A stretch of 64,000 nucleotides of DNA from Chloroflexota bacterium (GTDB lineage Bacteria; Chloroflexota; Anaerolineae; Promineifilales; Promineifilaceae), in assembly GCA_022616275.1 (NCBI GenBank), contig JAKEFB010000182.1, positions 1 to 64,000 on the forward strand, given 5' to 3'. How positions within the stretch are numbered: the stretch's first letter is position 1; the number at the start of each line of letters is the position of its first letter. Made by a program: the position numbers and the translations under genes. Positions 34,158 through 36,579 of this stretch are shown one piece after another. A model generated the notes under the pieces. It was not told where the DNA came from. It did not search any database and saw only the letters and a program-made list of their open reading frames with translations.

Positions 34158-34410
34158 CCTGGACACCCGGCCGCCACAAATGATGCGCAGCACCATGCCG
34201 GCCTGGGTCATTGCTGTCCTATTTGTGGCTACTGCCGGAATGACATTACCAGCGGCCCGGAAACAGGCTGCTACACCTTTGGCGACGTGAAGTAATGGTG
34301 CAGGAACAAAAACTCCTCTCCCAGACGCTATTAAAGGACACTTCCGCTAACCAGGTGGGTATGGGCAGCTAAAACTTCAGGCGTTGGCCTCCTAACAGAA
34401 AGGTGAACTC

Positions 34411-36579
34411 ATTCAACGAAGCGTCAAAGTTGCCGTCGTCGCCCTACTGCTCCTTCTGTTGGCCATGTTGCTGCGGCCGGCGCCCGCCCGGCCGATCCGG
34501 GTAGCCGTAGCCAAAGGCGCCCGGGCGGCCGATTCCCCGGAGTTAGCCATAGACCAGGAACGAGCCGAGGCCCTGGCCCTGGCCGATCCGCGAGTGGCCC
34601 GCCTGCTGGCCGGCAACGCCTTCGATTTTCTCTACGCCGTGCCCCTGGGCCAGGCAGAGTCGGCTTCCTGGCGAGCGCCCCGGCCTGGCCCCGGTTGCCA
34701 GGCCAACACCTGCGCCCACGTGACCTTTTACGACTATACCGACGGCGGCACGGTCGAGGCCGTCGTCGAGCTGGCCAGCGGCCGGGTCGTGGATGCCTGG
34801 GCCGACCCCACTGCCCGGCCGGGGGCCAGCCAGACAGTTCTGCCCCACGCCCTGGCCGTGGCCGCCGCCGACCCTCAGGTCACGGCCGTCCTGGGCGAGA
34901 TCAAGCCCGGCGATTTAATGATGGTTCCCATGTCCGCCTGGCTGGCCGGCGAGGCCTGCCACCATGACTGGTGCGTGGACCTGACCTTCCTGGCCCCTGA
35001 CGGCAGCGGCCGGGTTTTCCACGTCCTGGTCAACATGGAAACGGAAAAAGTGGCCCGCGTCTTCTACACCCGCGGCCGGCCGGACCGGGCTTACACCCGC
35101 CCTACCCTCCAGGGGCCGCGCTTTGAGAACGGCTGCCACGAGCAATACGACTGGAACGTCTGTTGGGAAATGACCGCCCACGACGGCCTCAACTTCAGCG
35201 ACGCCACCTACGACGGCCGGCTCATCTTCCGCAGCGCCAAAGTCGGCCAGGTTGAGGCCTGGTACGCCACCTGGCCCGGCGGCTACCGCGACGAAATCGG
35301 CTTCCGTTCTTCGGTGCCGCCCCACCTGGGCACCCTCGTCAACGACCTGGGCGACGGCTTCGAGGTCCGCCAGCTCTACACTGAATTTTTACGCTGGCCC
35401 AACTGTATCTGCTGTTACCGCTACGAACAGGTTATCCGTTTCTTCGCCAACGGGGCCTTTGAGCTTCGTTTCGTCTCCCACGGCCCCGGCTGCGACGACC
35501 TGTCTATCTACCGCCCCTTCTGGCGCATAGACCTGGAGCTGGACAACCGGCCGAATGAAGCCGTGTGGACCTTTACCGGCAACCAATGGCAGGAAATGGC
35601 CGGTGAAGAGATGTTGCCGCTATTCCAGGAATTGTCGCCCGGCGGCGAAAAGCTCTTCACCGCTTCAGGCGACCTGGGCTACTACTGGCGGCCGGTAGCC
35701 ACCGACCCGTTGGGGCTGGACGAGGGCCGGCTCTTTATGCTGCGCTGGAACGAAAACGAGGGAGATGGCCCCATCCACACCGGCCCGGCCGACACCTTCC
35801 AGCCGCCGGCCGGCTACCTGGACGGCCAGCCGCTGGCCAGCGAAAACGTCGTGCTCTGGTACGTGCCCATCCTCAAAACGAAGAAAAGCGTCCCTTATTG
35901 GTGCGTCCCCGACCCCGAACCGGCCTTCTCCCCCTGCGAAGCCATCCTCCGCGTCGAACCCACCAACGACCTCCCCCAACCATCCCTGATCACTCCCATA
36001 CCCTCTCCCCCCCTCTCCCCCTCACCCCCTCCCCTTGTCACCCCCTCATCCCCTCCCCTTGTCACTCCTTCCCCTCGTCCCATTGCCGGCGACGACGCTG
36101 CCACGACCATCCTTAACGGCGGCTGTGGCGCGTGCCACAGCATCGCCAGCCTCAACGAGAGCGGCCAGGTGGGGCCGGACCTGTCCAACATTGGCGCCAC
36201 GGCCGGCCAGCGCGTTCCCGGCCTGCCGGCCGAAGCCTACCTGCGCCAGTCCATCCTCGAACCCAACGCCTTTCTGGTCGCGGACTGCCCCGGTAGCCCC
36301 TGCCCGGCCAACGTCATGCCCCGGGACTACGCTCAGCGCCTGACGCCCCAGCAAGTAGAACTCATCATAGCTTTTCTTTTACAGCAAGGCGTGGAAACAG
36401 ATCCCACCCAGCCAACGCTCCCCCCGGCCGTCGGCGCGGCCGGCGCGACGAGCACTCCGCCCCCGACCAGCCCAGAGCGGCCGGCTCAGACGGCTAACAT
36501 CCTCTATGTCCTGGGCCTTGTCGCCCTGGTTATCCTGTTGCTGGTTGTAGCCCGGCGAGATCCCCGAGGGGTTGCGTAG
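34411..36579 (+). CDS. copper-amine-oxidase-like protein fused to cytochrome c, membrane-anchored
   Basis: This is a large exported protein. Residues up to about 230 look like the two small N-terminal domains of copper amine oxidases (VTFYDYTDGGTVEAVVELAS, WCVDLTFLAPDGSGRVFHVL). The next 250 resemble the catalytic beta-sandwich: AHDGLNFSDATYDGRLIF, GGYRDEIGF and CYRYEQVIRFFANGAFEL. The last aligns with the NYDY stretch holding the quinone-forming Tyr. A Pro/Ser linker follows. A cytochrome c domain then has haem site CGACH (about 36130) and axial Met in ANVMPRDY. A C-terminal helix (ILYVLGLVALVILLLVVA) anchors the protein. The start is unusual: no ATG/GTG/TTG gives a full signal peptide. ATT 34411, with AAAGGTGA upstream, would give QRSVKVAVVALLLLLLAMLL; the next starts are TTG 34459 and ATG 34465. 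Its stop lies in a palindrome. Confidence 0.65.
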   Translation: MQRSVKVAVVALLLLLLAMLLRPAPARPIRVAVAKGARAADSPELAIDQERAEALALADPRVARLLAGNAFDFLYAVPLGQAESASWRAPRPGPGCQANTCAHVTFYDYTDGGTVEAVVELASGRVVDAWADPTARPGASQTVLPHALAVAAADPQVTAVLGEIKPGDLMMVPMSAWLAGEACHHDWCVDLTFLAPDGSGRVFHVLVNMETEKVARVFYTRGRPDRAYTRPTLQGPRFENGCHEQYDWNVCWEMTAHDGLNFSDATYDGRLIFRSAKVGQVEAWYATWPGGYRDEIGFRSSVPPHLGTLVNDLGDGFEVRQLYTEFLRWPNCICCYRYEQVIRFFANGAFELRFVSHGPGCDDLSIYRPFWRIDLELDNRPNEAVWTFTGNQWQEMAGEEMLPLFQELSPGGEKLFTASGDLGYYWRPVATDPLGLDEGRLFMLRWNENEGDGPIHTGPADTFQPPAGYLDGQPLASENVVLWYVPILKTKKSVPYWCVPDPEPAFSPCEAILRVEPTNDLPQPSLITPIPSPPLSPSPPPLVTPSSPPLVTPSPRPIAGDDAATTILNGGCGACHSIASLNESGQVGPDLSNIGATAGQRVPGLPAEAYLRQSILEPNAFLVADCPGSPCPANVMPRDYAQRLTPQQVELIIAFLLQQGVETDPTQPTLPPAVGAAGATSTPPPTSPERPAQTANILYVLGLVALVILLLVVARRDPRGVA

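Follow-up and report, generated by a model that had tools for sequence, protein, structure and literature searches.

The stretch of DNA analysed here (hereafter the window) comprises 64,000 nucleotides of contig JAKEFB010000182.1 from a Chloroflexota bacterium of the family Promineifilaceae (GCA_022616275.1), and its open frame at 34411-36579 on the plus strand encodes what is probably an unusual electron-transfer enzyme with a predicted amine-oxidase fold that lacks the copper histidines. The frame holds 722 residues if translation begins at the ATT at 34411, or 706 aa from the TTG at 34459. No suitable ATG lies within 34396-34470, and AAAGGTGA is found upstream of the ATT, which may act as a rare start codon. 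An earlier sequence-only reading had proposed that the product keeps the domain order of copper amine oxidases (CAOs), carries an altered topaquinone (TPQ) motif and, if its Tyr is still modified, could pass electrons straight to a fused haem. The observation itself was confirmed, with its motifs and coordinates exact, and its interpretation held in part, in that the fold, the loss of copper ligands, the replaced neighbour of the TPQ tyrosine, the fused cytochrome c and the conserved Tyr all stood.

Architecture of the predicted protein

In the predicted model, three beta-rich domains span approximately residues 44-520 and are joined through a linker to a haem domain, with a membrane helix near either end of the chain (Table 1). 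By hydropathy, the N-terminal helix is present in 37 and the C-terminal helix in 36 of the 38 long rows of the haem clade, as we call the relatives that share the fused haem domain. Pfam, NCBIfam and phmmer searches with the window protein alone returned a strong signal from the haem domain only. This domain combines the CxxCH motif, the axial Met and the profile match (PF00034, 21.5 bits at a cut-off of 21.3) of class I cytochromes c, and is a His/Met-type cytochrome c in which the axial Met is predicted; the CGACH-bearing C-terminal domain had been recognised as a cytochrome c from the sequence alone. A Cys-Cys-MP pattern of this type occurs in 41 of 42 haem-bearing rows, and CxxCH and the axial-Met region are shared with SoxX-like class I cytochromes c (PDB 1w2l). 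Unlike SoxX, the haem domain is fused to a CAO-like domain and reaches 38.3 bits with the SoxX model TIGR04485, which is below the cut-off of 61.

Table 1. Features of the window protein, with positions in the window
Feature	Position	Strand	Basis or remark
Whole gene	34411..36579	+	722 codons from ATT
N-terminal membrane helix, residues 2-20	34414..34470	+	predicted model and hydropathy
D2-like small domain, ~residues 44-134, Cys pair C96/C101	34540..34812	+	edges approximate
D3-like small domain, ~residues 139-225, Cys pair C183/C188	34825..35085	+	edges approximate
D4-like catalytic-type beta-sandwich, ~residues 240-520	35128..35970	+	model, profile alignment
Y285, gate Tyr equivalent (HPAO Tyr305 / AGAO Tyr284)	35263..35265	+	profile alignments
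D294, invariant Asp, candidate counterpart of the catalytic base	35290..35292	+	81/81
CICCYRY: C332 (one-residue insertion), C334, C335, Y336 (TPQ position), Y338	35404..35424	+	alignments
C361, invariant	35491..35493	+	81-row alignment
SIYRP, where the HxH copper ligands sit in CAOs	35503..35517	+	Y367 invariant, 81/81
ENVVLWYVPILKTK, C-terminal strand, place of the third copper ligand without His	35842..35883	+	alignments
Flexible linker rich in Pro/Ser	35977..36090	+	pLDDT <50 at residues 527-553
Class I cytochrome c domain, residues 566-659	36106..36387	+	Pfam, NCBIfam, phmmer
CGACH haem attachment motif	36124..36138	+	sequence
M636, predicted axial haem Met in CPGSPCPANVMP	36316..36318	+	ligand role inferred
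C-terminal membrane helix, residues 691-715	36481..36555	+	predicted model and hydropathy

Kinship with copper amine oxidases and the putative remodelled pocket

The predicted fold of the window protein is that of copper amine oxidases, with the D2-D3-D4 order, as the sequence-only reading had anticipated, and in a viral structure library the sole match with a strong E-value was a viral copper amine oxidase. Profile-profile comparisons point the same way: 17 haem-less relatives matched 14 bona fide CAOs of the same phylum with 94% probability (E 1.4e-7), and a family alignment of 81 rows (40 haem rows, window included, and 41 haem-less rows) matched 21 CAOs with 96.5% probability, or with 98.8% when five D4-only CAOs were added. 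The broken or short sequences L120, L142, L157, L158 and L159 were excluded from the 81 rows, as were L009-L011, L036 and L037. The haem clade and the haem-less clade form one family (100%, E 4.6e-50). The amine-oxidase kinship becomes visible only via relatives, since single-sequence searches gave only the haem domain strongly. The search for a catalytic-domain profile that had been suggested earlier gave nothing for the window protein, which has no PF01179 match at E 1 and does not reach the gathering score, whereas the haem-less relative L018 (the gene of genome G166) passes with 29.5 bits at a cut-off of 27. Altogether, four haem-less genes of one genus (G335, G166, G341 and G323) pass when in-frame pieces are summed, and no PF01179 gene above the cut-off was found in the window genome. 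By membership the window protein is not a copper amine oxidase, the three copper histidines and a passing PF01179 score being absent, but it is clearly a derivative of the CAO fold with a haem partner.

At five further loci (L111, L112, L113, L114 and L115) we noted D4-only CAO relatives of 398-404 aa, encoded by ~1.4-2.7 kb of each locus, that keep HxH; the L111 and L112 sequences retain FHHL too, whereas their TPQ place is occupied by AYNY.

In the profile alignments, Y336 sits on the TPQ tyrosine, and it is invariant among the homologues (81/81 rows), so that the conservation on which the sequence-only reading depended was borne out. The Tyr is in register, yet the motif of the window protein reads NCICCYRY, in agreement with the altered CYRY and adjacent Cys noted before at 35413-35424. 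Residue 335 is Cys in 40/40 haem rows and, among the 41 haem-less rows, Asn in 38, with one row each for Tyr, Ser and Ala; the insertion C332 occurs in 40/40 haem rows and in 0/41 haem-less rows, where the alignment has a gap. The proposed check on the CCYRYE region thus came out positive, with C(I/V)CCYRY in 44/44 fetched haem-clade loci (window not counted). A direct thioether between the adjacent residues 335 and 336 appears unlikely on geometrical grounds, and C334, C361 or W329 would make better partners. In HPAO-1, replacement of the Asn at the 335-equivalent position (Asn404Ala) left merely 5-10% of TPQ formed (PMC3382800), and AGAO was slowed 160-fold by Asn381Ala (PMC9491219).

The gate Tyr of CAOs, a role assigned to Tyr305 in HPAO (PMC3382800), corresponds to Y285, which is invariant in 81/81 rows; two earlier alignments disagree on the invariant column (Y285 versus W284), and both the clade-versus-clade profile and the 81-row alignments favour Y285. 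The FDxGE catalytic-base segment of CAOs falls in an alignment gap, and D294 is therefore a candidate base only. Both HxH histidines also fall in a gap of the profile-profile alignment, with SIYRP at that place, and the loss of the copper pair had been read correctly. Among 30 aligned rows there is neither HxH nor a His at the third-ligand place, L010 and L011 having a His several residues ahead of it, and the window protein lacks the set of three copper-ligand histidines (HxH plus one). The family further shows large deletions in the active-site sequence between the Asp region and the TPQ motif. Invariant in the 81 rows are, among others, C96, C101, C183, C188, W248, D258, Y285, D294, W329, C334, Y336, Y338, C361, Y367, R372, E399, W483, C498 and C509, and C361 is a possible disulphide partner of C334.

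Distribution of the family and the haem-less sister clade

At E 1e-5, the family was found in 29 of 400 genomes drawn from the phylum (window genome included). In the window's own taxonomic family, 50/53 genomes match at E 1e-20, and a haem-type copy (E <1e-150) is present in 44/53, window included, at 45 places. Relatives from named records carry the labels Promineifilum, Ardenticatenia or Anaerolineae, or are plain Chloroflexi metagenome-assembled genomes; the pattern of that search contained C[CN]YRYE, which makes motif conservation there partly circular, and the locus counts given elsewhere are free of this. CxxCH lies in the same open frame in 41 of 44 fetched haem-clade loci, the remaining three having an in-frame stop ahead of CxxCH (one) or ending at a contig edge (two). 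Sixteen haem-less paralogues of the same taxonomic family have no CxxCH (0/16) and read CNYRY in 15 cases and CYYRY in one. In a tree of the 81 rows and 6 of the 21 CAOs, made by a quick method with a warning that long branches meet, the haem and haem-less groups have a single origin each (SH-aLRT 99 and 96). The haem fusion and the CxCC change fall in the same clade.

Around the haem-less genes, a MauG-family gene lies within 5 kb of 15/54 loci and within 10 kb of 18/54, where uniform placement would predict 0.19 and 0.35, respectively (cytochrome-only or short-fragment matches left out). With genome kinship and contig edges uncorrected, the P value of this comparison is indicative only. The 15 loci represent nine genera and three families, related genomes not being independent, and Pfam confirmed PF03150 (MauG family) in nine neighbours. 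The dihaem genes are of several sequence types and stand in tandem, divergent or convergent orientation. For the type at L189, the best PDB match is the di-haem enzyme 6e1c (E 6.9e-73), and alignment with the peroxidase 2c1u places a Tyr opposite a Met that we take to be a haem ligand; Tyr-His-ligated haem is a trait of MauG (PMC6405878). The idea of MauG as an obligatory maturase is weakened in that 8 of 48 genomes with a haem-less gene, namely six of family f35 (G034, G043, G078, G102, G110 and G281), G295 and G407, have no PF03150 match at E 1e-8.

A second partner, here called A8, is a conserved, secreted-looking gene of ~340 residues beside a large haem-less subclade (e.g., L188:4820-5893). 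It was found in 29 of 45 searched genomes, among them both f35 genomes searched for it (G034 and G110), and is absent from seven searched haem-type-only genomes (G372, G144, G436, G415, G442, G443 and G447). Judged from the coordinates, 20 of these 29 genomes have it no more than ~410 bp away from the haem-less gene, to which one contig-edge fragment can be added. Five members scanned against Pfam gave no convincing match, and with weak PDB matches only (YncE, E 0.1; 6rtd, 0.88; a MITSUBA-1 chain, 0.062), to which comes the appearance of the sequence, the term propeller-like is a guess.

GSDH-type dehydrogenase genes occur near seven haem-less loci, including the window genome's own haem-less paralogue (30% identity), and PF07995 was confirmed for five such proteins from four of the seven loci. 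In the window genome, three tandem GSDH-type genes stand beside the paralogue (L214:8093-12070, contig C294). The only PF03150 match of this genome (L215:6001-8289, contig C189; 763 codons) consists of a MauG-family dihaem domain and a long repeat-rich C-terminal part, which by eye is right-handed beta-helix-like.

Possible function and alternative explanations

From our point of view, the best explanation, to which we assign a probability of roughly one half, is that the window protein is an extracytoplasmic, membrane-anchored and copper-free redox protein, in which a remodelled CAO fold is joined by the flexible linker to cytochrome c and which would function as a dehydrogenase or an electron-transfer protein. 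A putative pocket of Y336, Y285, D294 and Y367 together with C332, C334, C335 and C361 would perform redox chemistry on an organic substrate or partner, and the electrons would exit via the tethered haem and enter the respiratory chain, not pass to O2 at copper. TPQ biogenesis is a textbook case of copper-driven self-processing, and with copper missing, and self-processing along with it, any redox cofactor must be another group. Candidates are an amino-acid radical, a quinone introduced by a separate enzyme, a disulphide centre formed by Cys residues or a small molecule bound to the protein.

Several observations weigh against this explanation. Neighbour recurrence at 35 haem-clade loci revealed no redox operon; the recurrent neighbours, many of them on short contigs, are presumably coaBC (20/35), smpB (16/35) and CTP proteases (17/35), and the gene was thus probably inherited in place, outside any redox operon. 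A MauG-family gene is near none of the haem-clade places (0/45 within 5 kb, 0/45 within 10 kb), so that the linked MauG-type gene expected of a MauG-matured quinoprotein is missing in this clade. In the sister clade, 39/54 loci have no such gene within 5 kb and 36/54 none within 10 kb, and these family members manage without a fused haem. With regard to the pocket, the catalytic Asp of CAOs may have been lost, invariant residues can be structural, and the profile of the haem clade, used by itself, could be aligned with true CAOs no further than residue 283 (probability 55%), the equivalence of Y336 with the TPQ position resting on profiles that include haem-less relatives.

One could alternatively imagine, with clearly less confidence, that the protein is a non-catalytic scaffold or sensor, as the sequence-only reading had offered as its second option. 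The amine-oxidase fold would then be a ligand-binding or structural domain, D4 would be without chemistry, and the cytochrome c would serve as a redox sensor or as an electron relay between other proteins. Consistent with this, the copper His are lost and much of the CAO active site that separates the Asp from the TPQ motif is deleted, and several haem-less members, some of them extended at the C-terminus, resemble secreted lipoproteins. The option is weakened, though retained, by the haem fusion and the sister clade's recurrent MauG-family neighbours, and Tyr at the positions equivalent to the active site, like other polar residues, is unchanged in 81/81 rows.

A more specific scheme, which we consider unlikely, combines MauG/MbnH-type maturation in the haem-less branch with its replacement by the fused haem in the window branch, copper having been abandoned altogether. 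In the haem-less branch, a dihaem enzyme, in place of copper self-processing, would convert the Tyr at the TPQ position, or else the invariant Trp329/Cys334 next to it, by oxidation into a quinone-like cofactor, with participation of the propeller-like partner, comparable to MauG, the propeller of methylamine dehydrogenase (MADH) and the MADH small subunit. In the window branch, the fused cytochrome c and the added CxCC cluster would replace the external haem enzyme, making the window protein a haem-linked dehydrogenase that works without copper and combines everything in one chain with an amine-oxidase fold. Both the eight PF03150-free genomes and the lack of MauG-family neighbours in the haem clade weaken a haem-matured cofactor.

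Less probable still is a new metal site, in which C332, C334, C335 and C361 (perhaps with Y336 or Y367) would bind copper, zinc or iron at the former copper site and the metal would work with the haem. The restriction of C332 and C335 to the haem clade described above agrees with such a site, but C334 and C361 are shared with the haem-less members and may pair in an older disulphide, the remaining Cys are explained by disulphides of the vicinal or CxxC type, and extracytoplasmic Cys clusters are usually oxidised. That the protein is simply a standard copper amine oxidase to which a haem has been fused, and that its motifs were misread, is very improbable despite the fold and the PF01179 matches of L018 and the genes of one genus, given the absence of HxH and third-ligand His in 30 rows, the missing PF01179 match of the window protein itself and the effect of the Asn-to-Ala exchange at the C335 position in HPAO-1 (PMC3382800).

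Compared with CAOs (PF01179; AGAO, ECAO and HPAO), the window family has the D2-D3-D4 fold, the gate Tyr and the TPQ-position Tyr in register; it differs in the missing copper His, in CICCYR instead of TxxNY(D/E) and in the deletions between the Asp region and the TPQ motif, and the window protein in addition has membrane anchors and a fused haem. Family members that are without the standard TPQ motif are already known, as plant copper amine oxidase clade I / Brassicaceae CuAO-zeta is reported to lack T/S-X-X-N-Y-D (PMC12058724); these are plant proteins, with no haem fusion mentioned in the passages covered. As in the systems of MADH with MauG (PMC6405878) and of MbnH with its partner, dihaem genes of the MauG family lie next to the sister clade, along with partner or GSDH genes, whereas the putative target has a CAO fold and the window gene itself is without a MauG-type neighbour.

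Quinohaemoprotein amine dehydrogenase, with its CTQ-bearing small subunit and maturation genes for it, is not known to be related in fold to the CAO-like domain. What this enzyme has in common with the window protein is the idea of a protein-derived quinone (cysteine tryptophylquinone, CTQ) combined with haem c (PMC7876137). The methanethiol oxidase MtoX is likewise a redox enzyme linked to mauG-like and SCO1 genes, with a proposed protein-derived quinone, but in contrast to the window family it is copper-dependent and belongs to the SBP56 family (PMC5739008).

None of the titles and abstract openings covered, a scope without most subscription journals, deals with an amine-oxidase fold from Chloroflexota that lacks copper or is fused to haem. 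The family keeps the fold and the tyrosines, has dropped copper and is associated with c-type haem, which is fused to it here and comes with a neighbouring MauG-family gene in some loci of the sister clade. Such a lineage would reveal either a second way of deriving a cofactor from Tyr or Trp within the CAO fold or a clear case in which an oxidase fold was converted into a module for dehydrogenation or electron transfer. Four COX1-family genes above the cut-off are present in the window genome.
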